IMG/VR virus record: IMGVR_UViG_3300047328_000096
Coordinates: 1-33,337 of that record
Source of the DNA: a virus
DNA: 33,337 nt
Strand: one strand, 5' to 3'
The stretch's first letter is position 1. The number at the start of each line of letters is the position of its first letter. The notes under the pieces were generated by a model. That model ran no database searches. It saw only the letters and a program-made list of their open reading frames with translations, and was not told the origin of the DNA. Made by a program: the position numbers and the translations under genes. This document shows, in pieces, positions 3,451-33,337 of this stretch.

Positions 3451-3490
3451 TCAGGCGGCTTTTGCAGCGCTGACCGTCCAGATATTCACA

Positions 3491-3811: not shown

Positions 3812-3832
3812 GTATGAGGTCGTGGCCGGATT

Positions 3833-10225: not shown

Positions 10226-10226
10226 C

Positions 10227-15898: not shown

Positions 15899-15912
15899 CG
15901 CTCGCCTGCCCC

Positions 15913-16296: not shown

Positions 16297-16308
16297 GCGG
16301 TCTCTCCT

Positions 16309-18843: not shown

Positions 18844-19343
18844 GACCGGCCCTTCCCGCGCTCGGCCGCGTCCAGGTCGGCCACCACGATCGCCTCGACT
18901 TCCTTCTGGTCCTCGGCGTCGAAGCCGATGAAGGGTCTTGGCACCAGCGTGACCGAGGGCTTGCTCACCCAGTGGCTTCCGATCTTGAACCTGAGGTTCG
19001 CGACGTTCTTGGCGTGGATGGTGCCGCCCAGCTGCTGGATCGCGGCATAGATCTTGTTCGAACCGACTTCGACCTGGTTGCGGCCGGCGATCGACGCGAT
19101 CGAGGCGCGCAGCATGCCGCTGTCGAGCAGCGTCTGGCCGCCCTCGAGCGTGGCGCGCAGCGACGGCTTCCAGGGCGCGCCGCCCGGGCCGGTCTGCGTG
19201 GTGAAGCGCCGCTGCGTCGACGACACCAGGTAGGCGCCGATCGTATCCATCACCGGCGTGAGGTCGCCGGCGATCTTCGAAAGCCGTTCGAGGCCGATGG
19301 CGGACGAGCCCAGCGCGTTGCGATCGAGGAGCATGCTGATCAT
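18840..19343 (-). CDS. Phage virion morphogenesis protein (Mu gpG / P2 gpS type)
   Basis: The 167-residue protein shows the pfam05069 pattern: AGDLTPVMDTIGAYLVSSTQRRF, the GGAPWKPSLRATLEGG block and the LLDSGMLRASIASIAG motif, with a final PRPFIGFDAEDQKEVEAIV. In P2 and Mu these proteins complete tails or join tails to heads. In Mu the gene (gp31) lies with the head genes before the protease; here it follows gp36, inside the tail operon. It is coupled by a stop/start overlap to the micro-ORF upstream and to gp37 downstream. Confidence 0.9.
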   Translation of the reverse strand: MISMLLDRNALGSSAIGLERLSKIAGDLTPVMDTIGAYLVSSTQRRFTTQTGPGGAPWKPSLRATLEGGQTLLDSGMLRASIASIAGRNQVEVGSNKIYAAIQQLGGTIHAKNVANLRFKIGSHWVSKPSVTLVPRPFIGFDAEDQKEVEAIVVADLDAAERGKGRS

Positions 19344-19432
19344 CGCACTGCCTCCTCATTGGCACGGTGCGAGCTCCCGGCGTTGGTTACAACGCCTGCC
19401 GCTCGCCGGCGCATGTGAATGCGCCCGATCAC
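19340..19432 (-). CDS. Coupled micro-ORF with RIHMRR motif (copy 2)
   Basis: This is a 30-codon frame (GTG start; VIGRIHMRRRAAGVVTNAGS at its start) between gp36 and protein G. The GTG overlaps the gp36 stop by 4 bases (GTGA), and its TGA overlaps the ATG of protein G by 4 bases. A GAGGAG near its end can serve as the ribosome site of protein G. It shares a 19-base identity and the RIHMRR core with copy 1 at 12381-12437. Either a short peptide or a coupling device is possible; repeated placement at a gene junction argues against chance. Confidence 0.5.
   Translation of the reverse strand: MIGRIHMRRRAAGVVTNAGSSHRANEEAVR
19406..19424. repeat. 19-base repeat with GCGCAT/ATGCGC hairpin (copy 2)
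   Basis: This is the second copy of the sequence at 12411-12429, in the same orientation, with the stem at 19409-19424. It lies at the gp36/protein G junction of the same operon, about 7 kb upstream of copy 1 in the direction of transcription. Confidence 0.7.
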
Positions 19433-19893
19433 AGCGCATCCCTCAGCTTGCGGCGGCTCATCTCGCGCTCGAGCTCGTTGGTCTGCGGCATGCCGGCGCC
19501 CTCGCCGATGTCGGCGGCATCGTCGTCGGCCTGGGCGGGGAACAGCCGCACCTCGCGGGCCTGGACCTTCTTCAGCCAGCCGCGCGCGGCGCTCTCGGCG
19601 GAGGAGACGTGGTCGGGCACCGCCATGGTGTTGCGCCGGTAGAGCGCGGCCAGGACCAGGTCGCAGGCAACCGACACGAGATAGGGCGGCGTCGAGCCAA
19701 GCGGCAGCGTGTATTCGACGGCCAGGTAGCTGTCGATCTCGGCCGAGGCATCGGCGATCGCCTGGGTGAGCACCGCGCCGGTGATGGTGGTCGCCGGCGG
19801 CGTGGCGTCGCTCTCCGGCAGATCGGTGAGCTGGATCAAGAGCCGCGTGTTGAAGCGGGCCTGCAGGTCGGATTGGGCGCAATAGGCGGTCAT
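19429..19893 (-). CDS. Mu gp36-like protein (DUF1320)
   Basis: The 154-residue protein has the DUF1320 pattern: an N-terminal YCAQSDLQARFNTRLLIQLTD, then the long helix AIADASAEIDSYLAVEYTLPL, and a DLVLAALYRRNTMAVPDHV segment. Mu gp36 is a head-tail connector-type protein made just after the capsid in the usual gene order. Here it follows a large fibre gene instead. Its stop is shared with the GTG of micro-ORF copy 2. Confidence 0.88.
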   Translation of the reverse strand: MTAYCAQSDLQARFNTRLLIQLTDLPESDATPPATTITGAVLTQAIADASAEIDSYLAVEYTLPLGSTPPYLVSVACDLVLAALYRRNTMAVPDHVSSAESAARGWLKKVQAREVRLFPAQADDDAADIGEGAGMPQTNELEREMSRRKLRDAL

Positions 19894-19897
19894 TGCA

Positions 19898-22303
19898 TCA
19901 CCAGAAGTCGGCGTAGGCGCTGTAGTGCAGCGAGAACCAGTTGCCGGGGGCCGAGGTGCTGACGACGCCGCTCGACTGGCCGGTGCTCACCACCGCCAGC
20001 GTGCCGTAGCTGTCGGTCCACGAGCCGCTCACGTAGTAGCTCGACGTGTTGGCATGGCCGGCGCGATCCCACAGCGACATGGTGGGCACCGCGCGCATGC
20101 GGACGGGAAAGCTCAACGAGGTGGCGGACGCGCCGGAATTGCTGGCCGGCAGGCTGGCGATGCCGTTGGCCGACGTCGAGCCGGGCGCGGTGCCGTTGTC
20201 GTAGCTCGCCTGGTAGAAGGCGGCATTGCGCTCGAGCTCGCGCGCGCTGTCGGGCAGCTCGGGCGGCGGCGGCTTGCCGTTCAGGGAATTGTTGGTGAGG
20301 CCCGGCGTCGGCCGCAGATCGGGCGCACTCAGCTCGACGTATTTGGTGTTGGCGTTGAGCGCGCCGAAATCGAAGGTGACGCTGTAGCCGTTCGACGCCG
20401 AGCTCGACGGCGTGAAGGTGTAGGCGAGCGTGCAGACGGCGGTGCTGGCGCAGGCCTGCAGGCTGGTCGCCGAGAGATCCGCGGTGCAGGTTCCGAAATT
20501 CTCGAAGCTCGAGGCATAGCAGGTCGAGACCTGCGCGGTGAGCGAGGCGCCCGAGACGTTCTTGATCGTGATCTGGACGGTGGTGACCTTGCCCGCGATC
20601 GTCGCGGCATCGGAACCGCCGATGCGCTGGCTGCACGCGACGTCGCTGTTCGACGTGGCCCCGGTGACGCGCAGCGAATAGTACGCGCCGTTCTGTCCGG
20701 TGGTCTGCTGCGTCCAGGCGCCTGCCGCGGTGCCGGCCTGGCAGGCCCAGCCGTTGGCCGCGATATAGGACGAGCCCGAGGGCGACGTCGCGATCGTGCC
20801 CGAGGTGCCGTTCGGCCACGACACCATCGTCGAATTGCGGAACAGGTTCGCGTAGCCGTGCGCCTGATAGAGCGCGTTCCATGCCATCGCCGTGGTGGCG
20901 ATGTTGGTCGAGCTGTCGTTCGGCGCATCGGTCGTGGCAGTGACGCCGCTCGGGATCGTGCAGGTGCTCGACAGTGTCGTGCTCGAGCTCGCGTAGTACG
21001 CCATGCAATTGGCGGTGCCGGCATTGACCATGCCCGAGCCCGGAGATCCCGCGGGCGACACCGCGGCGCCCGAGTTGATGGTCGTGCTCGAGCTCGCGTT
21101 GCCGGTGAGCCCAGTGTTGGTCAGCACGACCGTCGTGGAGTTGGTGATCGACGACACCGTCATGTAGCCCGCAGTGCCGACGTAGAGATATTCGCTCGCC
21201 ACCATCCACGCGGTGGTGGCGACGCTGACGCTCACCGTCGAGGAGACGGCCGGCATCGTGAAGTTGGCTGTCGTCGTGGTGTAGGCACTGGTGCCGTTGG
21301 TGCCGTTGGTTCCGTTCGTGCCGTTGGACCCCGCGGAGCCGGTCGCGCCGGTCGATCCCGTCGCGCCGGTCGAGCCGGTGGCGCCTGTCGCGCCGGTGAG
21401 GTTGGCGATCGGCGAGCCCCACGAACCGGCCGACTTCGTATAGACGTCGCCGGTGCTCGAGCGGAAATAGTAGTCGCCGTTCGTGCCCGTGCCCGACGAG
21501 GGCACGCTCGTGCCGCTGTACCAGGTCGAGCCGTTCGTGCCCGCGGCGCCGGTGCTTCCGGTTGCGCCCGTCGATCCGGTTGCGCCCGTCGAGCCGGTGG
21601 CGCCGGTCGCGCCCGTGAGGTTGACGACCGGCGAGCCCCATGATCCGGCCGACTTGGTGTAGACGTCGCCGGTGCTGGTGCGGAAGTAGTAGTCGCCGTT
21701 GACGCCGGTGCCCGACGAGGGAACGCCCGAGCCGCTGTACCAGGTCGAGCCGTTCGTACCGGCTGATCCTGTGGCGCCGGTCGAGCCCGTCGCGCCGGTC
21801 GGGCCGGTGGCGCCCGTCGGGCCCGTTGCACCCGTGGCGCCGGTCGGCCCCGTCAGGTTGGCGATCGGCGAACCCCATGATCCGGCCGACTTGGTGTAGA
21901 CGTCGCCGGTGCCGGTGCGGAAATAATAGTCGCCGTTCGCGCCGGTGCCCGACGAAGGCACGCCCGAGCCGCTGTACCAGGTCGATCCGGTCGCGCCGGT
22001 GGCGCCGGTCGGGCCCTTGATGTTGGCGACGACGGTCCAGGTGCCGGCGACCTTGTTCGACACGTCGCCGGTGGTGTCGTTCACATAGTAGTCGCCGTTG
22101 ATGCCGAGGCCCGAGCTCGGCGTGCCCGATCCGTTGTAGAGCTGCGAGCCCGGCACGCCCTGCAGGCCCTGCGGTCCGATCGGCCCGCGCGGGCCGGGGA
22201 TGTGACTGCCAGGGCCAACCGGATCCGCGAAGCTCGTGATCGACGAGCTCGCGAGCGGAACGAGCGCTAGGACGATCGCGAGGAGAAGACGCCTAAGCTT
22301 CAT
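19898..22303 (-). CDS. Collagen-like fibre with signal peptide and repeat modules
   Basis: The 801-residue protein has a classic signal peptide (residues 1-26: KLRR, hydrophobic core LLLAIVLALVPLA, then SFA before DP). A short collagen-like piece (GPRGPIGPQGLQG) follows, then four copies of a 45-residue beta module (WYSGSGVPSSGTGANGDYYF type; the first diverged), each joined by Gly-X-Thr triplet runs (GATGATGSTGATG). The second half has phage-fibre features: NIATTAMAWNALYQ, a beta-rich domain with several Cys, and the ELERNAAFYQASYDNG motif of tail fibres. The start overlaps the upstream stop by 11 bases. It may be a virion fibre whose signal-like N-terminus is an anchor, or an exported surface protein. 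Confidence 0.75.
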   Translation of the reverse strand: MKLRRLLLAIVLALVPLASSSITSFADPVGPGSHIPGPRGPIGPQGLQGVPGSQLYNGSGTPSSGLGINGDYYVNDTTGDVSNKVAGTWTVVANIKGPTGATGATGSTWYSGSGVPSSGTGANGDYYFRTGTGDVYTKSAGSWGSPIANLTGPTGATGATGPTGATGPTGATGSTGATGSAGTNGSTWYSGSGVPSSGTGVNGDYYFRTSTGDVYTKSAGSWGSPVVNLTGATGATGSTGATGSTGATGSTGAAGTNGSTWYSGTSVPSSGTGTNGDYYFRSSTGDVYTKSAGSWGSPIANLTGATGATGSTGATGSTGATGSAGSNGTNGTNGTNGTSAYTTTTANFTMPAVSSTVSVSVATTAWMVASEYLYVGTAGYMTVSSITNSTTVVLTNTGLTGNASSSTTINSGAAVSPAGSPGSGMVNAGTANCMAYYASSSTTLSSTCTIPSGVTATTDAPNDSSTNIATTAMAWNALYQAHGYANLFRNSTMVSWPNGTSGTIATSPSGSSYIAANGWACQAGTAAGAWTQQTTGQNGAYYSLRVTGATSNSDVACSQRIGGSDAATIAGKVTTVQITIKNVSGASLTAQVSTCYASSFENFGTCTADLSATSLQACASTAVCTLAYTFTPSSSASNGYSVTFDFGALNANTKYVELSAPDLRPTPGLTNNSLNGKPPPPELPDSARELERNAAFYQASYDNGTAPGSTSANGIASLPASNSGASATSLSFPVRMRAVPTMSLWDRAGHANTSSYYVSGSWTDSYGTLAVVSTGQSSGVVSTSAPGNWFSLHYSAYADFW
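21392..21985 (-). repeat. Three tandem beta-module/collagen repeats in fibre gene
   Basis: Modules at about 21848-21985, 21611-21748 and 21392-21529 encode almost identical 46-residue units (STWYSG through SAGSWGSP and NLTG). They are separated by runs of Gly-X-Thr triplets of differing length. A fourth, diverged unit lies at about 22010-22141. Near-identity at the DNA level suggests recent duplication or ongoing slippage and recombination. Confidence 0.85.
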
Positions 22304-22643
22304 CGTCCGGTGCCGCGTAGTAGAGGACATGGACGACGACAGCCGTGCCGTTGAGGCGCACGAGCTGCAGGTTCGCGGGATCGCCCGCATAGTCGTCGCG
22401 CTCGCCGGTGTAGAGCGGCATGCCTTCGGTCGGCGTCGGCTCGGTGCCGTCGTCGCGCCAGACGACGGCGCCGACCTCGCCGTCGGTGGTCGGCGCCAGC
22501 TCGAGCACGCGGATCTTCGCCAGCACCGGCCGGTAGCTGCCGATCAGCCCGTCGCGATCGAGGCCGGGCAGGCGATAGACCTGCGCGTCCTCGATCGTGA
22601 CCTGGCCGTAGCCCAGCGGCCGTTCGTGCTTTCCGGCGGTCAT
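22293..22643 (-). CDS. Hypothetical phage structural protein
   Basis: The 116-residue protein is beta-rich and soluble: RPLGYGQVTIEDAQVYRLPG opens it and LVRLNGTAVVVHVLYYAA closes it. It has no signal or membrane segment. It lies between gp35-like and the collagen-like fibre, overlapping the fibre start by 11 bases, so it may help fold or attach that fibre. The family is not recognised. Confidence 0.65.
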   Translation of the reverse strand: MTAGKHERPLGYGQVTIEDAQVYRLPGLDRDGLIGSYRPVLAKIRVLELAPTTDGEVGAVVWRDDGTEPTPTEGMPLYTGERDDYAGDPANLQLVRLNGTAVVVHVLYYAAPDDEA

Positions 22644-22653
22644 GCGGCGGCGA

Positions 22654-22875
22654 TCAGCTCGCCGGCGGAGCGGCGGCGGCCTTCTTCTCGGCGGCGGCTT
22701 GTGCCGCGGCCGCGGTGCTGTTCTGCGTCACGGTGAAATTCGCATCCTTCTTCAGGGTCGCGATTTTCTCGGCGCCGATCTCGCTCACTTGCGCGGCGCT
22801 GAGCGGCGTGGTGCCCGCCGCCCACTGCCGGCCGGCGCGCCACATCGCCCGCTTGGCGACCACGACGGTGCCCAT
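22654..22875 (-). CDS. Mu gp35/FluMu-type small protein
   Basis: The 73-residue protein begins MGTVVVAKRAMWRAGRQWAA, then PLSAAQVSEIGAEKIATLKK, and ends in an Ala/Lys-rich tail. This is the pattern of the small gp35-type proteins (an RxGRxW motif followed by a short helix-turn of about 30 residues) that follow the major capsid gene in Mu-like phages. Here it is the first gene of the minus-strand operon. No ribosome site precedes the ATG, and only 9 bases separate it from the divergent ATG at 22885, so nothing upstream of it resembles a capsid gene or a normal promoter. Confidence 0.55.
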   Translation of the reverse strand: MGTVVVAKRAMWRAGRQWAAGTTPLSAAQVSEIGAEKIATLKKDANFTVTQNSTAAAAQAAAEKKAAAAPPAS

Positions 22876-22884
22876 GGCGATGCC

Positions 22885-23142
22885 ATGTGGATCCAGGAGG
22901 GCGGCTACGTCGATGCCGACAACGTCGGCTGCTGCGGCCCGACCGATTGCCATCGCGAGAAGGCCGCCAAGTTCCGCGAGGCCGACGACGGCGTCCACAT
23001 CACGGCGGGCGCGGGCGAGGAGGTTCTGATGCCGCGCAAGCTCGCCGGCCACGGCCTCTATGTCTCGATCGACGACGGCTGGTGGATGTGCGTGCGCGGT
23101 GGCGTCGTGAAGTGCGTGTTCAAACCCGCGACGGGGACCTGA
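22885..23142 (+). CDS. Exported CCxxxDC-type protein, apparently decapitated
   Basis: The 85-residue frame starts at ATG 22885 and contains NVGCCGPTDCHREKAAKF, GAGEEVLMPRKLA and WWMCVRGGVVKCVF. Small secreted proteins with a Cys-Cys-x-x-x-Asp-Cys centre and late Cys pairs are common in alphaproteobacteria and normally carry a signal peptide. Here none is present. The frame stays open upstream and reads GAHGDAM just before the ATG, like the first residues after a signal cleavage site, but the bases before that belong to the minus-strand gp35-like gene. The stop is followed one base later by the next start (TGAGATG). Confidence 0.5.
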   Translation: MWIQEGGYVDADNVGCCGPTDCHREKAAKFREADDGVHITAGAGEEVLMPRKLAGHGLYVSIDDGWWMCVRGGVVKCVFKPATGT

Positions 23143-23143
23143 G

Positions 23144-23611
23144 ATGGATCCGACCCGGCAGCGCGGCTACTTCAACAACAATCCCGGCAATCTCGATCGC
23201 GTGCTGAGCGACGAGCCGTGGCAGGGCGAGATCCGCAATCCGAACGATCCGCGCCTCTCGCCCTTCCAGAAGAACGAGATCATTTATGGCCGCTTCTGCG
23301 TCTTCGACACTGCCGAGCACGGCCTGCGCGCCCTGGTCAAGAACCTGATCGCGCTGCGCGATCGGCTGGGCGACCACACCGCCAACCAGTTCATCGGCGC
23401 CTGGGCGCCGCCGGGCGAAAACAACACCGCGGCTTACGTCGCGCGTGTCTGCGCCGTCGCCGAGGTCGGGCCCGACGATCCCATCAACATCGGCTATCGG
23501 CCGATCATGCGCGAGTTCGTGATCGCCATCACCGACGTCGAGGAAGGCGGCAATCCCTACCCGCCGGCCCTGATCGAACAGGCGATGACCGACGCCGGCA
23601 TTGCCCTGTGA
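23144..23611 (+). CDS. RGYxNNNPGNL virion/lysin-like protein
   Basis: The 155-residue protein starts with TRQRGYFNNNPGNLDRV, the signature of a widespread phage family (RGIRNNNPGNI) annotated as structural or peptidoglycan-degrading proteins. In order there follow a YGRFCVFDTAEHGLRALVKNL segment and a HTANQFIGAWAPPGENNTAAYVARVC block, both usual in that family. It heads the plus-strand lysis group, directly before a holin-like gene, which makes an endolysin role likely. The catalytic residue is not established to my knowledge. It may replace the truncated lysozyme at 390-704. Confidence 0.7.
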   Translation: MDPTRQRGYFNNNPGNLDRVLSDEPWQGEIRNPNDPRLSPFQKNEIIYGRFCVFDTAEHGLRALVKNLIALRDRLGDHTANQFIGAWAPPGENNTAAYVARVCAVAEVGPDDPINIGYRPIMREFVIAITDVEEGGNPYPPALIEQAMTDAGIAL

Positions 23612-23636
23612 CCCAAGGCATTTGAGAGGAGCTGTC

Positions 23637-24146
23637 ATGCATCGCCTTCGTCGTCTCGCGTCCCTCGGCGGACTTCCCGCCCTCCTGGCCGTTGCCATCG
23701 GTTGCTGCGCGCTCGCGATCGCGCCGGCGTTCGCCCAGGCCGCCGGCGTCAACGTCACCCAGGCCTTCGACACGATCACCGACCTGCTGATCGGCACGCT
23801 GGGCACGCTGCTGGTCTATGTCATCCAGGACGCGGCCAAGAAGCTCACCGGGCAGGCGGTGTCGAGCAATGCGCTGGATACCGTGAAGGCGCTGTTCGAG
23901 CACGGTGCGCACGACCTGGTGAACACGCACCTGCTCAAGGACGGCGAGATCACCGTCAACACCAAGAGCGAGCTCGGCAATCTGCTGCTGCAGCGGGCGA
24001 CCGCCGCGGTCCCCACGGTGCTCGCCCAGAGCAACCTCACGCCCGACACGCTGGCCGCCCTGGCGCAGGGCGCCGTCGCCAAGGCGCTCAACAACATGCC
24101 ATCGGCGCCGCCCTTCGCACCCGCCGCCCCGTCCGTCAAAACCTGA
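23637..24146 (+). CDS. Holin-like membrane protein
   Basis: The 169-residue protein has a strong ribosome site (GAGAGGAG six bases before ATG 23637). A signal-like N-terminus (HRLRR, then ALLAVAIGCCALAIAPAFA) is followed by a second hydrophobic segment (DLLIGTLGTLLVYVIQDAAKK), then a soluble helical tail. This fits a two-segment holin or holin accessory, which opens the inner membrane for the lysin. It is placed between the lysin-like and lipoprotein genes. An exported protein of other function is possible. Confidence 0.55.
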   Translation: MHRLRRLASLGGLPALLAVAIGCCALAIAPAFAQAAGVNVTQAFDTITDLLIGTLGTLLVYVIQDAAKKLTGQAVSSNALDTVKALFEHGAHDLVNTHLLKDGEITVNTKSELGNLLLQRATAAVPTVLAQSNLTPDTLAALAQGAVAKALNNMPSAPPFAPAAPSVKT

Positions 24147-24156
24147 GGAGACTTCG

Positions 24157-24573
24157 ATGTTCCGTTCCCATGCCCGCACCCTCATCGCCGCCTGCGCCTT
24201 TTCGTTGCTCGCGGCCTGCTCTCCGGCACCGCCGAGCAGCACCGCAGCGCCGAGCACCGGCCCGCTGACCGTGCCCGGCACGTCGGTCCTGATCGCCGAC
24301 GCGGCGGCGTTCGCCAGCACGGCCTGCGGTCTCAAGGCGCCGACCGATGCGCTGCTCACCGGCATCGCGACGGCGGCGGTGCCCGCGGCGACGCTGCCGC
24401 TGCTCGGCGTCGAGGGGGTCGGCAATCTGCTGTGCGCCTATCGCGCGGCCGTGGTGGCGGCGACGCCGGCGGTCCCGACGCCGCCCGCGGCACCGGCGCC
24501 GGCTCCTGCGCCGGTGCCGGCGACGCCAGCGGCCGTCCCGCCGGCCGCGATCACACCGGCCACGAGCGGCTGA
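24157..24573 (+). CDS. Pro/Ala-rich lipoprotein, possible o-spanin
   Basis: The 138-residue protein has a lipoprotein signal (FRSHARTLIAACAFSLLAAC, lipobox LLAAC with Cys 21), so it should be lipid-anchored. A Pro-rich tail (PAPAPAPVPATP) follows. Small Pro-rich lipoproteins in lysis cassettes are typically Rz1-type outer-membrane spanins. However, no i-spanin partner overlaps it, although the next small membrane gene is close. A good ribosome site (GAGGAG) precedes the ATG by 8 bases. Confidence 0.6.
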   Translation: MFRSHARTLIAACAFSLLAACSPAPPSSTAAPSTGPLTVPGTSVLIADAAAFASTACGLKAPTDALLTGIATAAVPAATLPLLGVEGVGNLLCAYRAAVVAATPAVPTPPAAPAPAPAPVPATPAAVPPAAITPATSG

Positions 24574-24586
24574 GCTCGCGTTGCCC

Positions 24587-24736
24587 GTGGCTGCCCGCGT
24601 CATCATCATCGTCACCTTCGGTCTCGCCGCAATCGTCTGCGCGGCATTTGCCGTCGACCGCGGCTACTACGTCAGGGAATGGACGGCCGGAACCATCTTG
24701 TGCGCCTTCGTCGTGCTGTGGGGCGCGATAGGATGA
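24587..24736 (+). CDS. Tiny membrane protein
   Basis: A 49-residue frame from GTG 24587 (a TTG at 24581 is the alternative start) encodes two hydrophobic stretches (VIIIVTFGLAAIVCAAFAV and TILCAFVVLWGAIG) around a short charged loop. Its TGA overlaps the ATG of the lipase gene (ATGA at 24733-24736), indicating coupling. It could be a holin or antiholin subunit. No motif beyond topology. Confidence 0.5.
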   Translation: MAARVIIIVTFGLAAIVCAAFAVDRGYYVREWTAGTILCAFVVLWGAIG

Positions 24737-25563
24737 TCGCCGACATCGTCCTCGGTGCGCTGCTCGCGATCGGCGCCCTGCTGTGCTTTATCGCCGGCCT
24801 GGCGTCGGCGGTCTTCGTGCCCGACGGGCAGGCCGCCAATCCGGCGTGGAAGGGATGGCTCACCGTTGCCCTTCTGTTGGCGGTGTTCGCGTATCTCTGT
24901 TTCGCCGACGCTCACGTGGCGCACAGTGCCGAGCTCGCGACGGCGCTGCTGCCGATCCACCTCGAGCGCGCGAAGATGTGCGCGGAGACCTACTCAGCCG
25001 ACGCGGTGCCGCACTGGATCACGCCCGGGATGTGCAGGGCTTTCCTGGGCGACGACGGCGTCGAGACCGTCGTCACCTTCGAGGGCACGCGGCCGGATTT
25101 CGCGGGCGACTGGCTGGTCGACCTCAACCAGGCGCCGCTCGATCTCGATCCCTCGCTGGGTCGCCTGCCGCACGGCTTCGGCACGGCGGTGTTCTCCGTC
25201 GTGCTGCGCATCATGCGCGAGCTGGGCGGTCACCACACGGTGGGCTTCAACGGCCATTCGATGGGCGGCTCGAACGCGCTGATCGCCGCGGCCGCCTGGA
25301 AGCTCGCGGGCCACGCGCTGGGCCGCGTGACTGCCTTCGAGCCGGCGCGCGTCGGCAAGCTCGGCCGCGTCCTGGCGGGCGAGCAGGTACTGATCACTTC
25401 GTGCGGCAGCGATCCGGTGCCGGCGCAGCCGTTCTGGCGCGAGCATCCGGTAGAGCCCGTGCACCTCGAGCCGTCCGACAGGATGTCGCCGATCGACTGC
25501 CACGAGATCGACAACGTCGCCGCCGCGATCGACGCGGCGCTGCGAGCTCCGGTGAGGGCCTGA
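24733..25563 (+). CDS. Membrane-anchored class 3 lipase
   Basis: The 276-residue protein joins two N-terminal membrane segments (about 5-27 and 41-58) to a class 3 lipase domain. Family features in order are TFEGT and GDWLVDLNQ (115-133, matching the usual FRGT...DWLTDL), the nucleophile elbow GHSMGG with Ser 176, an Asp in GSDPVP (227) and a His in CHEID (257). The full catalytic triad is therefore present. Class 3 lipases cut acyl esters of lipids. Within a phage lysis cassette this suggests attack on membrane lipids during release. The gene is coupled at both ends (ATGA upstream, TGATG downstream). An origin by fusion of a small holin gene to a lipase gene is likely. Confidence 0.8.
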   Translation: MIADIVLGALLAIGALLCFIAGLASAVFVPDGQAANPAWKGWLTVALLLAVFAYLCFADAHVAHSAELATALLPIHLERAKMCAETYSADAVPHWITPGMCRAFLGDDGVETVVTFEGTRPDFAGDWLVDLNQAPLDLDPSLGRLPHGFGTAVFSVVLRIMRELGGHHTVGFNGHSMGGSNALIAAAAWKLAGHALGRVTAFEPARVGKLGRVLAGEQVLITSCGSDPVPAQPFWREHPVEPVHLEPSDRMSPIDCHEIDNVAAAIDAALRAPVRA

Positions 25564-25922
25564 TGGAGTGGGTGAGTTTTCTAAAGGACTGGGGGGCGCT
25601 GCTGATGGCGTGCGTGCCCAACGCCGTGCTGGCCGCGCAGTGGGCGATGCGCAAGGAGTTCGCCACGACCGACAGCCTGCTGGGCGTGCACAAGATCCTC
25701 GACGACCGCGACCGCGAGCTCGAGGACAGCATCAAGAACGCACATCACCGTATCGACCTGCTCGCCAAGGACGTCGAGGGGCTGCCCGGCTATGACACCA
25801 CCAACGACATCAAGCGCGAGTTGGCCGAGCTGGGCGCCTCGCGCGAGCGCAATGCCGCCCTGATCGAGCGGGCGCTGATGAAGCTCGACCAGATCGACGA
25901 ATATCTGCGGACGCGGCCATGA
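25563..25922 (+). CDS. Mu gp25-like protein (DUF2730)
   Basis: The 119-residue protein starts with one membrane segment (LKDWGALLMACVPNAVLAAQ), then a long charged coiled coil (DDRDRELEDSIKNAHHRIDL and onwards). This is the DUF2730 pattern of Mu gp25, placed between lysis and gp26/gp27 in Mu-like phages. Its role is unknown; the layout also resembles i-spanins. The start overlaps the lipase stop by one base. Confidence 0.75.
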   Translation: MEWVSFLKDWGALLMACVPNAVLAAQWAMRKEFATTDSLLGVHKILDDRDRELEDSIKNAHHRIDLLAKDVEGLPGYDTTNDIKRELAELGASRERNAALIERALMKLDQIDEYLRTRP

Positions 25923-26221
25923 ACGCCTACGATCAGTTCAACCGCAAGCATCGCCGCCTCTCGATCCTGCGCATCCTCGAGGGCGCGCCGGGCTACGCCA
26001 GCAACGAGGCGATCCTGCACCAGATGGTGAACCACTTCGGCATCACCTCGACGCGCGACCAGGTGCGGAGCGAGCTGGCGTGGCTGGCCGAAGTCGGCCT
26101 GGTCAAGATCGAAGACCTGGGCTCGCTGATGATGGCCACCATCACCGAGCGCGGCATGGACATCGCCCAGGGTCACGCCCATCACCCCGACATCGCGCGC
26201 CGCGGCGCGCCCAAGGCCTGA
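25919..26221 (+). CDS. Mu gp26-like winged-helix protein
   Basis: The 100-residue protein matches small gp26-type proteins: RRLSILRILEGAPGYASNEA, then a helix-turn-helix-like TRDQVRSELAWLAEVGLVKI and a wing-like strand MMATITERGMDIA. The fold suggests an ArsR-like DNA-binding domain, possibly helping terminase recognise DNA. Start and gp25 stop overlap (ATGA). Confidence 0.8.
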   Translation: MNAYDQFNRKHRRLSILRILEGAPGYASNEAILHQMVNHFGITSTRDQVRSELAWLAEVGLVKIEDLGSLMMATITERGMDIAQGHAHHPDIARRGAPKA

Positions 26222-26224
26222 GGC

Positions 26225-26773
26225 GTGTCCCCTCCCAACAAGGTCGACGAGCTGCCGCCGGAGATCCTGGCCGAGGCGCAGAAGCTGCTGCGCGAGGGCC
26301 GCACCATCGACGAGATCACGTCCAAGCTCAGGGAGCTGGGCATGAACGTCTCGCGCTCGGGCGTCGGGCGCTGGAAAAAGTCGGCGATGAAGTCGATGCG
26401 CTCGATGCAGCGCGCCCAGGCGTTCGGCGCTGAGTGGGCGAAGAGCCTGAAGGAGGATCCCGAGGGCAAGGTCGGCCGCCTGCTGATCGAGATGGGCAAG
26501 ACCGCCGTGCTCGACAAGCTGCTCGACGCCCAGGACGACGGCAAGGACGGCGGAGAGACCGAGCCGCTCGACGTGAAGTCGCTGTTCTTCCTGTCGTCTG
26601 CCGTGAAGAATTTCGAGAGCGCCGGCAACATGAACGTCGCCCGCGAGCTCAAGATCATCGAGAAGGTGCTGTCGAAAGTCGACGAGGCGGTCGACCAGGT
26701 CGCCAAGGCCCGCGGCCTCACCAAGGAGACCGTCGAGGAGATCAAGCGCAAGATCCTCGGGGTGACGGCGTGA
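26225..26773 (+). CDS. Small terminase subunit (Mu gp27, DUF3486)
   Basis: The 182-residue protein has the DUF3486 pattern: KVDELPPEILAEAQKLLREG, a helix-turn-helix (TIDEITSKLRELGMNVSRSG), the VGRWKKSAMK segment, and a long C-terminal helical region with FFLSSAVKNFESAGNMN and the ending LTKETVEEIKRKILG. It recognises phage DNA and feeds it to the large subunit. Start is GTG. The end overlaps the gp28 GTG by 4 bases. Confidence 0.92.
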   Translation: MSPPNKVDELPPEILAEAQKLLREGRTIDEITSKLRELGMNVSRSGVGRWKKSAMKSMRSMQRAQAFGAEWAKSLKEDPEGKVGRLLIEMGKTAVLDKLLDAQDDGKDGGETEPLDVKSLFFLSSAVKNFESAGNMNVARELKIIEKVLSKVDEAVDQVAKARGLTKETVEEIKRKILGVTA

Positions 26774-28374
26774 GCGCGCCGCATGCGATCGCGCCCGAGA
26801 CCAGGATCGACGCGCCCGGCGACTGGGGCCTGCTGCGCGAGAGCCAGCGCAAATGGGTGGCCGATCCCGCCGAGGTCAAGATCGCCGAGAAGGGCCGGCG
26901 CACCGGCTTCACCTTCGGCGAGGCCGCCGACGACGTGCTGATCGCGGCGGCATCGCGCGAGGCCGGCGGCGACAACGTCTACTACATCGGCACCACGCTC
27001 GACATGGCGCGCGAGTACATCGAGGCCTGCGGCCGCTGGGCGGTCGGCCTCAACCATGCCGCCGGCGAGATCGGCGAGCTGCTGATCGACGACGTCGACG
27101 AGCACGGCAACTCCAAGAACATCAAGGCCTTCCGGGTCGACTTCCCGTCGGGCTTCTCGATCCTGGCGCTGTCGTCGCGGCCGCGGTCGCTCCGCGGCCG
27201 CCAGGGCGTCGTGGTGATCGACGAGGCGGCCTTCCAGGACGATCTCGCCGGGCTGATCAAGGCCGCGATCGCGCTGATCATCCTGGGCAGCAAGGTGCGC
27301 ATCATCTCGACGCACGAAGGCGTCGAGAATTACTTCAACCAGCTGATCGAGGAATGCCGGGCCGGCCGCATCCCCTACTCGGTGCACCGCTGCACCTTCG
27401 ACGATGCCGTGCGCGAGGGCCTCTACCGCACGCGGTGCAAGGCCAAGGGCGAGACCTGGACGGCGGAAGGCGAGGCGGCGTTCACGGCCAAGGTGCGCGC
27501 CTTCTATCGCGGCAACGAGGAAGAGGAGCTCGACTGCATTCCCGCGCTGTCGGGCGGCACGTATCTCTCGATGGCGCTCATCCTGCCCTGCGTCAACGCC
27601 GCGATCCCGGTGATCCGCTGGGACTTCGCCGATGATTTTCTCGACCGGCCGGAGGCTGTGCGCGACGCCGAAGTTCTGGCGAAGTGCCGCGAGGAGCTGC
27701 AGCCGCTGATCGACAAGATGGATCCCGAGGCGCCGTCCTATTGGGGCCTCGACTTCGGCCGATCGGCCAACCGCACGACCTTCTGGCCGGCCCAGGCGAT
27801 GCGCGACACCAGACTGAAGACGCCGTTCCTGCTCGAGCTCTACAATTGTCCCTTCGCCCAGCACGAGACGATCTTCATCTGGCTGTGCGATCGGCTGCCC
27901 AAGTTCACGCACGGCAAGCCCGATGCGCGCGGCAACGGCGCGGCGCTCGCCGAGAAGCTGCGCTCGCGCTACGGCGTCGAGCGGATCGAGGAAGTGAAGG
28001 CGACGCTGGAATGGTACCGGGTCAACTGGCCGCCGGCGAAGGCGCGGCTGGAAGACCGCAGCTGCGAGGTGCCGCAGGACCGCGAGGTGCACGACGATCT
28101 GCGCGCGGTGAAGACGGTGCGCGGCATCCCGGTCATCCCCGAGCAGAACGCCGGCGCCGACAAGAAGAAGGGCCTGCGCCATGGCGACGCCGCGATCGCC
28201 TTCGTGAACCTCTGCGCCGCGGCCAAGGCCGAGCCCTGGACGTCGCAAGGCTACGAAACCCCTTCGAACCGGCCGCGCGATCTCTACGAACCAGCCGCCC
28301 GCCAGGGCGGCTTCGCGATGCGTGCCGACGATGACGATGCCATGAGCGCCGCGCGCGCCCGCGAAACGATCTAG
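26770..28374 (+). CDS. Large terminase subunit (Mu gp28)
   Basis: The 534-residue protein is the ATP-driven DNA packaging motor with nuclease. A Mu-type Walker A variant, EKGRRTGFT (40-48), Walker B GVVVIDEAAF (146-155) and the coupling motif IISTHEG (178-184) form the ATPase. The nuclease part contains YWGLDFGRSANRTTF (324-338) and GLRHGDAAIAF near residue 475, which supply the metal-binding Asp residues. Length is normal for Mu gp28 (about 550). It would package by headful into a capsid whose gene is not found in this window. Confidence 0.95.
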   Translation: MSAPHAIAPETRIDAPGDWGLLRESQRKWVADPAEVKIAEKGRRTGFTFGEAADDVLIAAASREAGGDNVYYIGTTLDMAREYIEACGRWAVGLNHAAGEIGELLIDDVDEHGNSKNIKAFRVDFPSGFSILALSSRPRSLRGRQGVVVIDEAAFQDDLAGLIKAAIALIILGSKVRIISTHEGVENYFNQLIEECRAGRIPYSVHRCTFDDAVREGLYRTRCKAKGETWTAEGEAAFTAKVRAFYRGNEEEELDCIPALSGGTYLSMALILPCVNAAIPVIRWDFADDFLDRPEAVRDAEVLAKCREELQPLIDKMDPEAPSYWGLDFGRSANRTTFWPAQAMRDTRLKTPFLLELYNCPFAQHETIFIWLCDRLPKFTHGKPDARGNGAALAEKLRSRYGVERIEEVKATLEWYRVNWPPAKARLEDRSCEVPQDREVHDDLRAVKTVRGIPVIPEQNAGADKKKGLRHGDAAIAFVNLCAAAKAEPWTSQGYETPSNRPRDLYEPAARQGGFAMRADDDDAMSAARARETI

Positions 28375-28384
28375 GAGCAGCAGC

Positions 28385-30052
28385 ATGGTCGCCCGCACCG
28401 TGATCCGCGACGCCAACGACCAGCCGGTCGACATGAAAGACCTCACCGTCGAGGACGGCGCGCCGACCGTGATGGGCGTGCGCCAGGTGCGCATGGATCA
28501 CCCGTCCTACCGGATGTCGCCCGAGAGCATGGCGATGATCATGCGCAACAGCGAGACGATCGACGCCTCGCGCTTCTTCTCGCTGTGCATGGACGTCGAG
28601 GAGCGCGAGACCCACTACAGGGGCGTGCTCTCGACCCGCAAGACGCAGGTCAGCCAGGTGCCGATCACCGTCGAGGCTGCCAAGGTGCCCGACGGCGAGA
28701 AGCACGCCCAGGCGGTGCGCGACGTCGTCGAGGCCGTCGACTTTCCGCTGAAGATTGTCGACATGCTCGACGGGCTGGGCAAGGGCATCTCGTGGACCGA
28801 GATGGTGTGGGACATCAGCGAAGGCCAGGCGGTGATCCAGAAGATCAAGTGGCGCGACCCGCGCTGGTTCCGCTTCGACATCGGCGATCTCGAGACCGGC
28901 CTGCTGCTCGACGAGGGCGGCCAGCCGCAGCCGCTCAAGCCCTTCAAGTGGATCGTGCACCAGCCCAAGCTGCAGTCGGGCATCCCGGTGCGCAACGGCC
29001 TGACGCGCTGCGCCGCCTACGGCTGGATGTTCAAGAATTTCGCGATCAAGGACTGGCTGATCTATCTCGACGTCTTCGGCATGCCGCTGCGGCTGGGCAA
29101 GTATCCGCAGAACGCGACGGCCGCCGAGAAGCGCGCGCTGCTGACGGCGGTGTCGAACCTGGGCAGCGATGCCGCAGCGATCATTCCGGCGGCCATGACG
29201 ATCGACTTTCCCGGCGGCTCGGGCGCCGTCAGTGCGGCGGGCTCGCCGTTCAAGGAGATGGCGACCTACTTCGACGAGCAGGCCTCGAAGCTGGTGCTCG
29301 GCCAGACCGGCACGACCGACGCCGTCGCGGGCGGCTCGCGCGGGCTGGGCGCGGTGCAGAACGCGGTGCGCGGCGACATCGAGCGCAGCGACGGCGTGCA
29401 GCTCGGCGCCACGCTCAGCCGCGACATCGCCATCCCGGTCGTGGCGCTGAACTTCGGGCCGCAGAAGCGCTACCCGCGCATCTTCGTGGGCTATCCCGAG
29501 GACAAGGACCTCGCGGCGTTTTCCGAGATGGTGAAGACCTTCGTGCCGATGGGTCTCAAGGTCTCCGAGCGCCAGGTGCGCGATCAGTACGGCGTCGAAG
29601 AACCGGCGGCGGGCGATACGTTGCTGGTCGCACCGCCGCCACCCGCGCCGATGAACGGCGCGGTAGGCACGCCGCCCCCGGACCCTCGGGCTGAGACGTC
29701 CGGGGGCGGCGGTGCTGACGATACCGGCGCCGAGCAGGGCGCGCCGCCCGAGACCGACGCCGACGATGACACGGCTGACGGCGAGGATCCCGCGACCATC
29801 CTGGCCGCGCAGGAGACGCTCGATAGAGCCGACCCCGATTGGGCCGACAAGGCGGTAGCGGCGCTGATCGCGGAGAACGGCTGGGTGCCCGACATCGGCG
29901 ACCTGCAGGAAGCGCTCGCCAAATGCAAGACCATGGAGGAGGCGCAGACGGTGCTCGCCGGCGCGCTCGACACGATCGGCCTCGACAAGTTCGCCGAGCT
30001 GCTGGCCAAGATCGCCTTCAACGCGCGCGGCGCTGGCATCACGAACGAATAA
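28385..30052 (+). CDS. Portal protein (Mu gp29, DUF935)
   Basis: The 555-residue protein matches the DUF935 portal family: the HPSYRMSPESMAMIMRN start, LCMDVEERETHYRGVLSTRK, WTEMVWDISEGQAVI, and a long clip/wing region ending before YPRIFVGYPEDKDLAAF. Residues 410-460 are Pro/Gly/Asp-rich and acidic, then a helical tail (MEEAQTVLAGALDTIGLDKF). The portal forms the ring through which DNA enters the head. Mu gp29 is about 510 residues, so the tail is a modest extension. Confidence 0.94.
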   Translation: MVARTVIRDANDQPVDMKDLTVEDGAPTVMGVRQVRMDHPSYRMSPESMAMIMRNSETIDASRFFSLCMDVEERETHYRGVLSTRKTQVSQVPITVEAAKVPDGEKHAQAVRDVVEAVDFPLKIVDMLDGLGKGISWTEMVWDISEGQAVIQKIKWRDPRWFRFDIGDLETGLLLDEGGQPQPLKPFKWIVHQPKLQSGIPVRNGLTRCAAYGWMFKNFAIKDWLIYLDVFGMPLRLGKYPQNATAAEKRALLTAVSNLGSDAAAIIPAAMTIDFPGGSGAVSAAGSPFKEMATYFDEQASKLVLGQTGTTDAVAGGSRGLGAVQNAVRGDIERSDGVQLGATLSRDIAIPVVALNFGPQKRYPRIFVGYPEDKDLAAFSEMVKTFVPMGLKVSERQVRDQYGVEEPAAGDTLLVAPPPPAPMNGAVGTPPPDPRAETSGGGGADDTGAEQGAPPETDADDDTADGEDPATILAAQETLDRADPDWADKAVAALIAENGWVPDIGDLQEALAKCKTMEEAQTVLAGALDTIGLDKFAELLAKIAFNARGAGITNE

Positions 30053-31357
30053 ATGGCCACCGCCGGGCCCGATCCCACCGTCAAGCCGGTGCCGTTCAAG
30101 GAGGCGATCGCCGCCTTCGAGCGCCGCATCGGCAATCTCGTGCCGACCGATCGCTGGACCGAGATGTGGCAGGAGGAGCATTCGAAGGCCTTCACCGTCG
30201 CGCGCTCGCTGGGCTACGACATATTGGGCGACATCTCGGGGGAGCTGCAGAAGTCGATCGCCGGCGGTGGCACCTTCGAAGGCTTCGCGAAGAACCTGAC
30301 GCCGGTGCTGCAGCAGAAGGGCTGGTGGGGGAAGACGCAGGAGGACGACGGCTCCGTCGTGCAGCTGGGCTCGCAGGCGCGGCTGAAGACGATCTACGAC
30401 ACCAATTTGCGCACCAGCTACTCCGCCGGCCATTGGGAGCGGATCCAGCGCACCAAGAAGGCGATGCCCTATCTCGTCTACGAGGGCATTCGCGACGGCC
30501 GCCAGCGGCCCGCGCATCGCGCCTGGACCGGCACGACGCTGCCGGTCGATCACCCGTTCTGGAAGGCGCACTACCCGCCGTGCGGCTGGCGCTGCCGCTG
30601 CTGGGTGCGCCAGGTGACCCGGCTCGAGTACGACAAGACACCCGAGGCCGACAAGCGTGTGCCTCCGGCAGGAGGGCCGTCGAGGACCTTTATCAATCCG
30701 AGCACCGGCGAGAAGGTCCAGGTGCCCTACGGCATCGATCCGGGCTTCGGCTACAACGTCGGCGAAGCGGCGATGGCGGGCGACGCCGGCGCCGACGCCG
30801 CCAAGGTGATGGCCGACAAGCTGGCCTCGACGCCGCCGCGCGTCGCGGCCGTGCCGCTGCCGGCTGCGATCCTGGCGGCGCAGGCGAAGGAGTTCGCGAC
30901 CTGGTTCGACAACATCGATCGCAGCCGCCTGAAGGGCGATCGACGCGTCGCCGGCACGCTGTCGGTCAAGGTGCTCGAGTTCCTCGCGGCCCTCGGTCTC
31001 GAGCCGGAGTCCGGCGCCATCACCGTCGACGAGCTCGGCATGGGCCACATGCGGCGCCGAGTGAAGAGCGCCGTGAAGCCGGACGACGCCACCTTGCGCG
31101 CGCTGCCGACGCTGCTCGCCAAGCCCGAGGCCGTGCTGTGGGACCGCGATCTCAAGAACCTGGTCTATGTCGTGGCCGTCGATGGCGATGCCGGCACCCG
31201 CTTCGTGGTGGCCGTCGATCGCTCGGTGAAGACGCGCGACCAGGCGACGGGCCGGAGCTCGAAGATCAGCACCAACGCCATCATCAACGGCCAGCGTGTA
31301 CCGCTGGCGTCGCTGCGGGATCACCGAAAGTACGAAGTGATCGAGGGGAAGATCTAG
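30053..31357 (+). CDS. MuF head protein with C-terminal nuclease-like domain (gp30)
   Basis: The 434-residue protein has the MuF core at residues 1-200: TIYDTNLRTSYSAGHWERIQ, VYEGIRDGRQRPAHRAWTGT, and the Cys/Trp motif PPCGWRCRCWV (175-185). After a linker (200-330) comes a domain (332-434) with VLWDRDLKNLVYVVAVD, a beta hairpin FVVAVDRSV, and the closing SSKISTNAIINGQRVP and RKYEVIEGK. That ending resembles phage-associated Barnase/EndoU/ColicinE5-RelE-like (PBECR) nucleases found at the C-termini of MuF toxins. If so it is injected with the DNA as an effector. Assignment of the last domain is by pattern. Confidence 0.85.
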   Translation: MATAGPDPTVKPVPFKEAIAAFERRIGNLVPTDRWTEMWQEEHSKAFTVARSLGYDILGDISGELQKSIAGGGTFEGFAKNLTPVLQQKGWWGKTQEDDGSVVQLGSQARLKTIYDTNLRTSYSAGHWERIQRTKKAMPYLVYEGIRDGRQRPAHRAWTGTTLPVDHPFWKAHYPPCGWRCRCWVRQVTRLEYDKTPEADKRVPPAGGPSRTFINPSTGEKVQVPYGIDPGFGYNVGEAAMAGDAGADAAKVMADKLASTPPRVAAVPLPAAILAAQAKEFATWFDNIDRSRLKGDRRVAGTLSVKVLEFLAALGLEPESGAITVDELGMGHMRRRVKSAVKPDDATLRALPTLLAKPEAVLWDRDLKNLVYVVAVDGDAGTRFVVAVDRSVKTRDQATGRSSKISTNAIINGQRVPLASLRDHRKYEVIEGKI

Positions 31358-31459: not shown

Positions 31460-31984
31460 TTAGGGCCGAGGGGGCGCCTGTTCAACCGCCGGTTTGATGC
31501 CCAGCCACCCTGGCCAGAGACCCTTCTGGGTGTGCCGCGCCTCGGCCTCGGCGGCGGCGTAGGCGAGGCTCAAGGTGGCGTCGCCGTGCACCGGCTCGCT
31601 GAGATAGAAGCCGAAGGCCATGCCGCGCTTCAGCATCTCGAGGCCGAGGTCGGCGTCGCCGGCTTTGCACCACGCCACGATCCGGCAATAGGGGTCGAAT
31701 TTCAGGACCTCGCAGCGCACCTTGTGATCGGATCTTTCGAGCAGGTCTTCGAGTGCCGCCCTGGCGCGCATGCCGGGCACCGTTTCGGCCTTTTGGCCGT
31801 CGCGTTCCTCGGGCGCGTTGATGCCCCACAGCCGGATCGAATGGGGGAAACCGATCCCGTAAATGTTGTCGCCGTCGCCGCTGAAAGCGACCCCGTCGAA
31901 CGCGCCAGGCAGGGGGCCGCAGTCTTTCGACCAGGCCGGGGTGGTGAGGGCCGCCAGGACGGCCCCGAGGAGGAGGATTTTCAC
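31460..31984 (-). CDS. Secreted staphylococcal-nuclease-like protein
   Basis: The 174-residue protein has a signal peptide (VKILLLGAVLAALTTPAWS, then KDC) and an SNc domain that cuts DNA or RNA using calcium. The motif RLWGINAPEE (51-60) corresponds to the RLxGIDxPE loop of the family, with Asn in place of the metal-binding Asp; the Arg (YCRIVAWC) and a late YAAAEAEARHTQKGLWPGW block are kept. A GTG start at 31984 was chosen because the signal peptide begins there. It faces the MuF gene tail to tail. It may be a host gene at the element border or phage cargo. Confidence 0.8.
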   Translation of the reverse strand: MKILLLGAVLAALTTPAWSKDCGPLPGAFDGVAFSGDGDNIYGIGFPHSIRLWGINAPEERDGQKAETVPGMRARAALEDLLERSDHKVRCEVLKFDPYCRIVAWCKAGDADLGLEMLKRGMAFGFYLSEPVHGDATLSLAYAAAEAEARHTQKGLWPGWLGIKPAVEQAPPRP

Positions 31985-32378
31985 TCCGGGCAGCCTGCGC
32001 GCCGATCGTGGCGCGCCAGCGGCGGCAACGCGGCCAAAACCGCGCCCAGTGAGCGTTTCGAAGCCCCTTCGTGGCCTTCTGTCCCAACTGTCCAACTGTC
32101 CCACGGAAGGGCCGGCCAGCCGTCGCCGATCAACGGCGCGCACTCCTCCGCTAAGCCTTTCGTTCGAAAGAGGAAAAGCCCCCGAGCTCGTTTCGACGTC
32201 CGCCGGCCCGTTCTGTCCCAAGATCAGCGCGATCGGGTCGCCGTCGCCAACCCTTTCGACGCCGACGCCAGGCCGCCTCGCGGCATTCGACACCCGTTCG
32301 AGGGCCAATTTTACTAGACTCGTCTCGGGTTCATCCCGCATACGGCCCGGGTAATCCCGGGTGGCAACACCGCCAAAC
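31985..32378. other. Gene-free stretch between nuclease and virion-like gene
   Basis: No supported gene lies in these 394 bases. They contain near-repeats of CTGTCCCA (32079-32103, and once more near 32213), read on the minus strand as QLDSWDRR-like codons. Such Trp-Asp/Val-Pro-rich runs occur in linkers of some phage replication proteins, so this may be decayed coding sequence. The nuclease promoter must lie here, but none was identified. Confidence 0.35.
32346..32361 (-). terminator. CCCGGG-TAAT-CCCGGG hairpin after the virion-like gene
   Basis: Two self-complementary CCCGGG blocks flank a 4-base loop, 18 bases beyond the stop of the 32379-33116 gene on the minus strand. The stem is strong, but no T-tract follows it, so termination is possible and unproven. 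Confidence 0.4.
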
Positions 32379-33116
32379 CTAGTGTTTCTCTACATAGGCC
32401 TTCGCGGCGTCGAGGCGCCGGGCGGTGGCGAGTTGCGAGTCCAGCTCGGCGGCGTGCTCGGGATCGAGCTGGTCGCTCACCCGGTCGAACATCACGGTCG
32501 CGCCGTCGGTGTTGCCGCGATCGAGATGGCCCAGGATCGCCACGTGATACACGCCGCTCTTCGCCTTGGCGGCGGCGGCATCGACATCTGTATCGGCAGG
32601 TGTGCCGCCGAGGGTCAGGCGTGTTCTCTCCGCGCCCGCGGCGGCGTTGCCCATGGCGTCGACCAGGCCGTCGTCGTTGTGTTGCAGCGCCGCGGCCTTG
32701 TTCAGCGCGTCGATGCGGTCCTGCGCGACCTGGCGTTGCCAGGCCAGGCTTTGGGCCGCGACGTGCCGGGCGATGTCGTCCTGGTCGAGATCCATGTGCG
32801 CGTCGAGCGCGCCGCCCAGCTTGCGGCGCTGGGCGTCGTTGGCCATGCCGTCGAGCGCCTGGTTCCTCATACGGTTCAGCGTGTCGAGCGTCGAGGGCGC
32901 GGCCTGCACCGCATCGGCACCCTGCTTGCCGTAGAAGGGGTCGGGTCCTTCGTACAACACCTGCTGCTTGGCATTGATGTAGTTGTTCAGCGCGTCCTCG
33001 GCCGCCGTGTTGTCGGTGATCCGCTGTTGTTGCAGCACCCCGGGATCGGGCGGCGGCGAAGGATCGACGGTCTCCGGCGCGGCGAACATCGAGTCGGGAA
33101 TATCGAGATAAGCCAT
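32379..33116 (-). CDS. Virion-like protein behind podovirus portal, possibly truncated
   Basis: The 245-residue protein starts MAYLDIPDSMFAAPETVD, with an ATG overlapping the upstream portal stop by one base (TGATG). It is helical, Ala/Asp/Gln-rich, with FYGKQGADAVQAAPSTLDTL, a pattern I associate with long structural (internal virion) proteins of alphaproteobacterial podoviruses. Those are usually several hundred residues longer; here the frame stops after AKAYVEKH, so it may be cut short. Exact function unknown. Confidence 0.6.
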   Translation of the reverse strand: MAYLDIPDSMFAAPETVDPSPPPDPGVLQQQRITDNTAAEDALNNYINAKQQVLYEGPDPFYGKQGADAVQAAPSTLDTLNRMRNQALDGMANDAQRRKLGGALDAHMDLDQDDIARHVAAQSLAWQRQVAQDRIDALNKAAALQHNDDGLVDAMGNAAAGAERTRLTLGGTPADTDVDAAAAKAKSGVYHVAILGHLDRGNTDGATVMFDRVSDQLDPEHAAELDSQLATARRLDAAKAYVEKH

Positions 33117-33337
33117 CACAATCCTCCCTGCAGCGCTGCGCTCACGGCATTCTGGCCGCCGCCGACATCGATCTGGCTGGCTTCCTTCGCGCCTTTCACG
33201 AGGGCGAGTCCTTGCTGCAGCGCCGCCTGCTTCGCCTGCTGCTGCTGGCGCTGTTGGCGGATCGCCATCGCCTGCTTGCGGTCGACCATCACGCCGGACG
33301 GCAGGCCGGTCATGTCGGCATAGGCTTCCATCGTGCC
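33116..33337 (-). CDS. C-terminal part of podovirus head-tail connector (portal)
   Basis: The frame runs off the right edge without a start; 73 codons are visible. The sequence MEAYADMTGLPSGVMVDRKQ, followed by a Gln/Arg/Ala-rich helix (AIRQQRQQQQAKQAALQQG), is the typical C-terminal end of T7-like Head-tail_con portals (YADxxGxP, then an IRxxRxxxQ helix). It is distinct from the DUF935 portal at 28385-30052, so two unrelated portal types lie in this window. The broken N-terminal block of a gene of this family is found at 3268-3450. Confidence 0.65.
   Translation of the reverse strand, partial: GTMEAYADMTGLPSGVMVDRKQAMAIRQQRQQQQAKQAALQQGLALVKGAKEASQIDVGGGQNAVSAALQGGL

Follow-up and report, generated by a model that had tools for sequence, protein, structure and literature searches.

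The window analysed here is the whole of IMG/VR record IMGVR_UViG_3300047328_000096 (33,337 bp), and it carries an integrated Mu-like (transposable) element at positions 4999 to 32394. The tail genes and the packaging genes of this element lie on two arms that diverge at about 22.87 kb, and a clade of Mu-like elements has such diverging arms as its native layout. The element itself is a broken member of that clade, since its centre is missing and conserved parts of two genes meet head to head at 22,866 to 22,870. We take this join to be a real deletion (probability about 0.7), a chimeric fragment being less likely. An earlier reading of this DNA, referred to below as the original prediction, had merged two separate matters, the native divergent order and the deletion of the centre.

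Borders of the element

A related prophage is present in Reyranella, on contig JAIETA010000165.1 of a metagenome-assembled genome (MAG) that was reached via a portal match. On this contig, gp30 is followed by an SNase gene, a 23-base sequence TGTAGAGGAACAATAGGTTTGGC and then bacterial genes (a TPP enzyme, trmB, rimP and nusA, by translation). A comparison of the window with this sequence gave a single counterpart past gp30, which reads TGTAGAGAAACACTAGGTTTGGC on the minus strand and ends at 32394 (one match in the window against none in 100 shuffles). Another counterpart, in inverted orientation, occupies 4999-5021; shuffled windows average 0.025 matches of this quality (16/23).

4994..4998, no strand: left copy of the target site duplication (TSD), TAGGC, the five bases just outside the element end
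4999..5021, plus strand: left terminal inverted repeat TGTAGCGGCGCAATTGATTTGGC, 16/23 identical to the right end
32372..32394, minus strand: right terminal inverted repeat TGTAGAGAAACACTAGGTTTGGC, 21/23 identical to the Reyranella prophage end
32395..32399, no strand: right copy of the TSD, repeating the bases of the left copy

Because the ends are inverted (TGTAG...TTTGGC) and TAGGC stands outside both of them, the element spans 4999-32394 (27,396 bp) and is flanked by a 5-bp duplication, as is typical of Mu-like transposition. Both ends thus lie inside the window and begin with TGTAG (at 4999 and 32394), which gives the 5'-TG inverted ends and short TSD of a transposable phage. Positions 1-4998 and 32395-33337 lie outside the element. 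An exact scan of viral contigs for the right-end sequence gave no match, because the ends of the relatives differ.

In the 390 bases inside the right end (31982-32371), TTTCGA-containing motifs are found at 32056, 32164, 32191 and 32254, and the whole window contains 22 motifs of this type where about 10 are expected. These motifs may serve the transposase as binding sites.

Two diverging arms shared with relatives

As the original prediction had described, the packaging genes are on the plus strand and end at a convergent border, and the genes from gp35 onwards are on the minus strand. At the border gp30 faces a minus-strand SNase gene, and the tail genes extend leftwards from 22874 as far as baseplate wedge genes. 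The packaging arm (25919-31357) contains the Mu-type gp27, gp28, portal and gp30 of a transposable phage, and this block is collinear in the Reyranella prophage and in three further elements (G057, G457 and G459).

25919-26221, plus strand: gp26-like (phrog_436)
26225-26773, plus strand: gp27 (PF11985)
26770-28374, plus strand: gp28 terminase (phrog_2)
28385-30052, plus strand: Mu portal (PF06074, E-value 6e-91)
30053-31357, plus strand: gp30 (PF04233, phrog_220)

Beyond the gp35 fragment described below, the tail arm comprises the following genes.

19898..22643, minus strand: collagen-like (GXX repeat) fibre and a small gene (22293-22643), by translation, with a collinear homologue between gp35 and gp36 in Reyranella
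18157..19893, minus strand: gp38-position gene, gp37 (Neck1/tail completion, phrog_26) and gp36 (head-tail adaptor, phrog_195), 50-63 % identical to Reyranella
15428..17868, minus strand: chaperone-position gene, tail tube (phrog_185) and tail sheath (phrog_165)
13711..15354, minus strand: tape measure protein (phrog_973 and others)
11290..13711, minus strand: baseplate hub region with gp44-like and gp43-like (DNA circularisation N-terminus) genes (phrog_184, PF07157), 63 % and 50 % identical to Reyranella
8016..10730, minus strand: baseplate genes gp46, gp47 and gp48-like (phrog_203, phrog_6, phrog_180), 47-72 % identical to Reyranella

The fibre gene (19898-22339) has a signal-peptide-like start at about 22.3 kb and is placed between gp35 and gp36, not after the baseplate.

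The original prediction had proposed looking for the divergent order in related genomes, and it was found in at least four independently assembled elements: the Reyranella prophage, the two-contig prophage G057 and two complete elements with ends and TSD. The complete elements, each on a viral contig of 42 kb, are G457 (IMGVR_UViG_3300002461_000856; 41,265 bp, TSD CGGGG) and G459 (IMGVR_UViG_3300014720_000062; 41,769 bp, TSD CTTCC). In the common order, repressor, protease, capsid and tail follow one another outwards on one arm, and ner, MuA, MuB, gemA, mor, terminase, portal, gp30 and the element end follow one another on the other. The Reyranella contig carries gp30, portal, gp28, gp27, gp26, mor, gemA, MuB, MuA and ner on its minus strand and repressor, protease (phrog_328), gp33 (phrog_1731), capsid (phrog_371), gp35, fibre, gp36, gp37, sheath, tube, tape measure and baseplate genes on its plus strand. 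An identical order is seen in G057 across contigs C534 and C526 (loci L034, L040 and L035), broken inside MuA; on the gp30 side, a weaker version of the terminal repeat closes this prophage near position 219 of C534.

Arms on opposite strands, with gp30 by one end and the tail by the other, are therefore common to the window, Reyranella, G457 and G459. Repressor, protease, gp33 and capsid on the tail arm, with ner and MuA on the other, are found in Reyranella, G057, G457 and G459; in the window this centre is missing. When a tree was drawn for 22 MuA sequences, the members with the split layout formed one clade (support 100/100). The nearest MuA outside this clade belongs to G210, where gp30 is followed by gp36 and gp37 without a change of strand, as in the usual order. 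The usual order is also present in RC1 and POA1180, and in G119, G148 and G330 as judged by portal, capsid and sheath on one strand. Since G457 encodes a central fibre of the flexible-tail type (phrog_31), the split layout occurs with more than one type of tail.

Mu, RC1 and POA1180 carry packaging, capsid and tail genes in one direction, and this might suggest that the divergent order is an inversion or misassembly special to the window record. The order shared by independently assembled elements refutes this explanation, to which we give almost no credence, and an assembly inversion of half a standard Mu genome was likewise ruled out by the four other elements.

The missing centre and the join

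Protease, scaffold, capsid, MuA, MuB, ner and repressor genes were not found in the window by family searches and tblastn, in agreement with the original prediction that protease, scaffold and capsid are missing. No match to the protease family phrog_328 was obtained in the window record, and nothing was recovered when the window was searched by tblastn with the Reyranella protease, gp33, capsid, MuA, MuB, ner and repressor. A capsid or protease hidden in the window was excluded on this basis. The suggestion that such a pair might lie directly beyond the window does not apply, as both element ends are inside it and the relatives carry protease and capsid in the middle. MuA and MuB are present in all complete relatives. 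With neither these two nor a protease/scaffold and major head protein, the window element counts only as a defective member of the transposable (Mu-like) phages.

22866..22870, no strand: head-to-head join of deletion type, where the conserved parts of gp35 and of the secreted-protein gene meet
22654..22874, minus strand: gp35 fragment, its domain opening at TVVVAKRAMWRAG and its N-terminal residues missing
22870..23142, plus strand: secreted-protein gene, cut before the mature N-terminus (GAHGDAMWI...); the homologues carry a leader

Both genes at the join are truncated. The gp35 domain TVVVAKRAMWRAG begins right at 22,869, and in the relatives it is preceded by about 20 (G457, G459) to about 90 (Reyranella) residues. 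On the other side, the secreted-protein gene opens at GAHGDAMWI without a signal peptide, and its homologues in G057, G457, G459, G168, G210 and G310 have a hydrophobic leader ahead of HG(D/E)A.WI. There is no space for promoters or ribosome sites between the arms. The interval from the gp35 domain to the body of the secreted protein, as computed from coordinates, is 16.9 kb in G457 and 16.4 kb in G459, and is absent in the window. When these 16.4-16.9 kb are added to the 27.4 kb of the element, a length of about 44 kb is obtained, within the range of the complete relatives. Both sides of the join are oriented as in the relatives, and thus one deletion suffices and no inversion is needed. It is likely that repressor, ner, MuA, MuB, gemA, mor, protease and capsid were removed in a single event. 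All other genes compared are intact and of the length seen in the relatives, so a real deletion would be recent.

Alternative explanations

The join could instead be a chimeric read or an assembly error, and the real element would then be an intact member of the split clade of about 44 kb. Misassembly, one of four options in the original prediction, was rejected above for the divergent order that the relatives share, but it retains some probability at this single join. All other genes compared are intact and the join leaves no promoter space, both as expected of an artefact; library chimeras usually have a junction overlap of a few bases, and the window is a metagenome record without reads. 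However, order and orientation on both sides of the join equal those of the intact relatives. The change is thus purely one of deletion, whereas chimeras from amplification are mostly inverted. The two conserved coding sequences could not both accommodate a long repeat, and a k-mer graph would need reads that cross the join. As the conserved coding parts leave few bases for an overlap, against the one k-mer or more that a graph assembler needs, a join already present in the sequenced molecules is favoured. An artefact is unlikely on these grounds, but it is to be taken seriously. Several points weigh against a real deletion: the join is known from the sequence of the record; no close relative spanning an intact centre was among those found; searches that excluded records very near the window gave no second copy of the join; and the open state and normal length of every other gene compared also fit an artefact at a single point. 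We nevertheless prefer the deletion, which probably exists in living DNA with the effect proposed below.

Mu derivatives that retain both ends can be moved by MuA and MuB in trans. The element could be a natural mini-Mu or satellite that arose by deletion, was selected, was mobilised and packaged by an intact split-layout relative and landed in the virion gene of another phage, and its intact ends and TSD and its open packaging and tail genes would agree with this. Against it, one copy was seen, the cut genes show no tidying, the record contains no helper and neither arm has space left for a promoter. This origin is improbable, and the satellite borrowing capsids that the original prediction had listed gained no positive support. 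A tailocin, or contractile tail particle, with leftover packaging genes is more doubtful still. The sheath, tube, tape measure and baseplate genes are complete and open, but terminase, portal and gp30 are equally intact, as are the transposon ends and the TSD, and repressor and activator are gone with no regulatory gene in their place. A tailocin locus would have tail genes under their own regulation, without packaging genes or ends; here terminase, portal, gp30 and both ends are present, and the tail particle system put forward earlier is without positive support. The remaining option, a rearranged and decayed prophage, came closest of the four, although the divergent order is native and decay is true only of the join.

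Comparison with known phages

The Reyranella prophage resembles the window element in the order and direction of the arms, the contractile tail, the SNase gene at the packaging end and the right end (21/23), with 56 % identity for the portal and 55-57 % for the sheath. It differs in keeping repressor, ner, MuA, MuB, gemA, mor, protease and capsid; it is inserted beside a bacterial gene and its tail end is cut by the contig. G457 and G459 share the split layout, the type of ends, the 5-bp TSD and a leader-bearing secreted-protein gene at the point where the window is cut, but they are complete and have no match to the sheath, tube or tape measure protein of the window.

Packaging, head and tail proteins of Enterobacteria phage Mu, Rhodobacter phage RC1 and Ochrobactrum phage POA1180 are homologous to those discussed here. 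In Mu, the packaging, protease, capsid and tail genes run in one direction, and in RC1 and POA1180 they are successive in one direction, unlike the split layout. Two opposite arms around a central repressor are the plan of Pseudomonas phage B3 (NC_006548) (PMC8705779). In B3, however, a single arm holds lysis, packaging, protease, capsid and tail together, and the other arm ends with gemA and mor. The nearest described precedent is the Leptospira TG1 group of transposable prophages, from which Mor/C is reported absent (PMC8705779); these have other hosts and were compared by their description. A limited search of open papers gave no description of the split arrangement in alphaproteobacteria. 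The split layout is a variation on the known B3-like two-arm plan, of which the window is a broken member. The viral contig L060 (IMGVR_UViG_3300049259_000085) is B3-like, with gp26 to gp30 and gp37 on one arm and ner, MuA and MuB on the other.

Proposed working of the element

In intact members, the arms diverge from a repressor/ner switch. One arm comprises repressor, protease, gp33, capsid, gp35 and tail; the other leads from ner through MuA, MuB, gemA, mor, lysis, terminase and portal to gp30 and the transposon end. Two opposite late transcripts would run from the centre, and the block of terminase, portal and gp30 would be reached last on the early arm. In the window copy, the centre would have been lost in one event that joined gp35 head to head to the body of the secreted protein. 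Such a copy would lack transposition replication, the switching on of late genes and head building of its own, and would be silent, making no particles alone. As it keeps both ends, its movement would depend on MuA and MuB from a relative, which is possible but unsupported.

Lysis region and genes near the element ends

The lysis region was assigned from phrog_873, PF01764 and homologues in relatives; its genes (23144..25922) have homologues upstream of gp26 in L002 and G057.

23144-23611, plus strand: glycosidase-like
23601-24146, plus strand: holin-position gene, by position
24157-24573, plus strand: lipoprotein-like
24679-25563, plus strand: lipase (evidence for the region includes PF01764)
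to 25922, plus strand: small open reading frame (ORF)
31460..31981, minus strand: secreted SNase-type nuclease (PF00565), at the outer end of the packaging arm and convergent with gp30
5164..5982, minus strand: D12 class N6-adenine DNA methyltransferase (PF02086, E-value 4.9e-19), adjoining the tail-side end

The SNase gene has a 47-48 % identical counterpart at the same location in Reyranella (L003 13048-13572). Placed between gp30 and the transposon end and facing gp30, it looks like end-located cargo.

The interrupted gene and the flanks

The gene that the element interrupts is a virion gene, and it belongs to a podovirus-like phage or prophage.

4084..4998, minus strand: interrupted podovirus-type virion gene, downstream part, in frame with 32400-33119 once rejoined
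32400..33119, minus strand: upstream part of the same gene, 240 codons (phrog_10475, E-value 7.9e-10 for 32379-33119)
33116..33337, minus strand: end of a podovirus-type connector gene running off the record (phrog_332 head-tail adaptor, E-value 2.9e-7; match to profile positions 490-547 of 560)
390-704, minus strand: phage lysozyme (PF00959, E-value 2.3e-31), flank
1-393, minus strand: small ORF in the spanin position, without family match, a spanin role being suggested by position; flank

When the element and one copy of the TSD were removed, the minus-strand frame from 33119 stayed open for 544 codons. This readthrough alone does not count as proof, since at 68 % GC long ORFs often arise by chance, and a coding score and a homologue were also required. 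The left-flank frame entered by the rejoined ORF has the best coding score of the six frames. The two gene parts, 27 kb apart, match adjoining stretches of one 1029-residue ORF in the same Reyranella MAG (E-values 1e-8 and 1e-4), and the rejoined protein shares 24 % identity with it over 22-347 (E-value about 1e-13). Neither Pfam nor PHROG gave a match for the rejoined 544-aa protein, though its first part alone matches phrog_10475. Among the 385 alphaproteobacterial genomes sampled, a relative of the interrupted gene was found only in that MAG, and therefore the host is probably a Reyranella-like alphaproteobacterium. That the right-hand podovirus genes belong to a contig chimera was ruled out by the TSD and the in-frame, collinear interrupted gene. 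Searches of phage records with the flank protein and with the secreted protein gave no match, nor did scans of viral contigs with the sheath, the right-flank protein and the 23144-23611 protein.

The interrupted gene, with its stop at 4084, is shorter than its Reyranella relative. Within 2500-4500 of the left flank, G+C falls from about 0.68 to 0.57, and the small ORFs at 2657-3031 and 3491-3811 belong to no known family. A 537-aa protein with a ClpP/protease-like stretch (weak matches to phrog_30575 and phrog_26024) is encoded at 924-2537, on the strand opposite to the adjoining phage lysozyme genes.

Significance of the split layout

A tail and packaging motor without a shell are probably explained by a simple deletion. 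The analysis also brings to light a clade in which the transposition genes share their arm with terminase, portal and gp30, opposite an arm of protease, capsid and tail genes. That head genes form a single unit of expression, as is usually assumed, thereby becomes testable, as this clade must time two opposite late transcripts. For such work, exact borders are provided by the ends, the 5-bp duplications and the two complete relatives.

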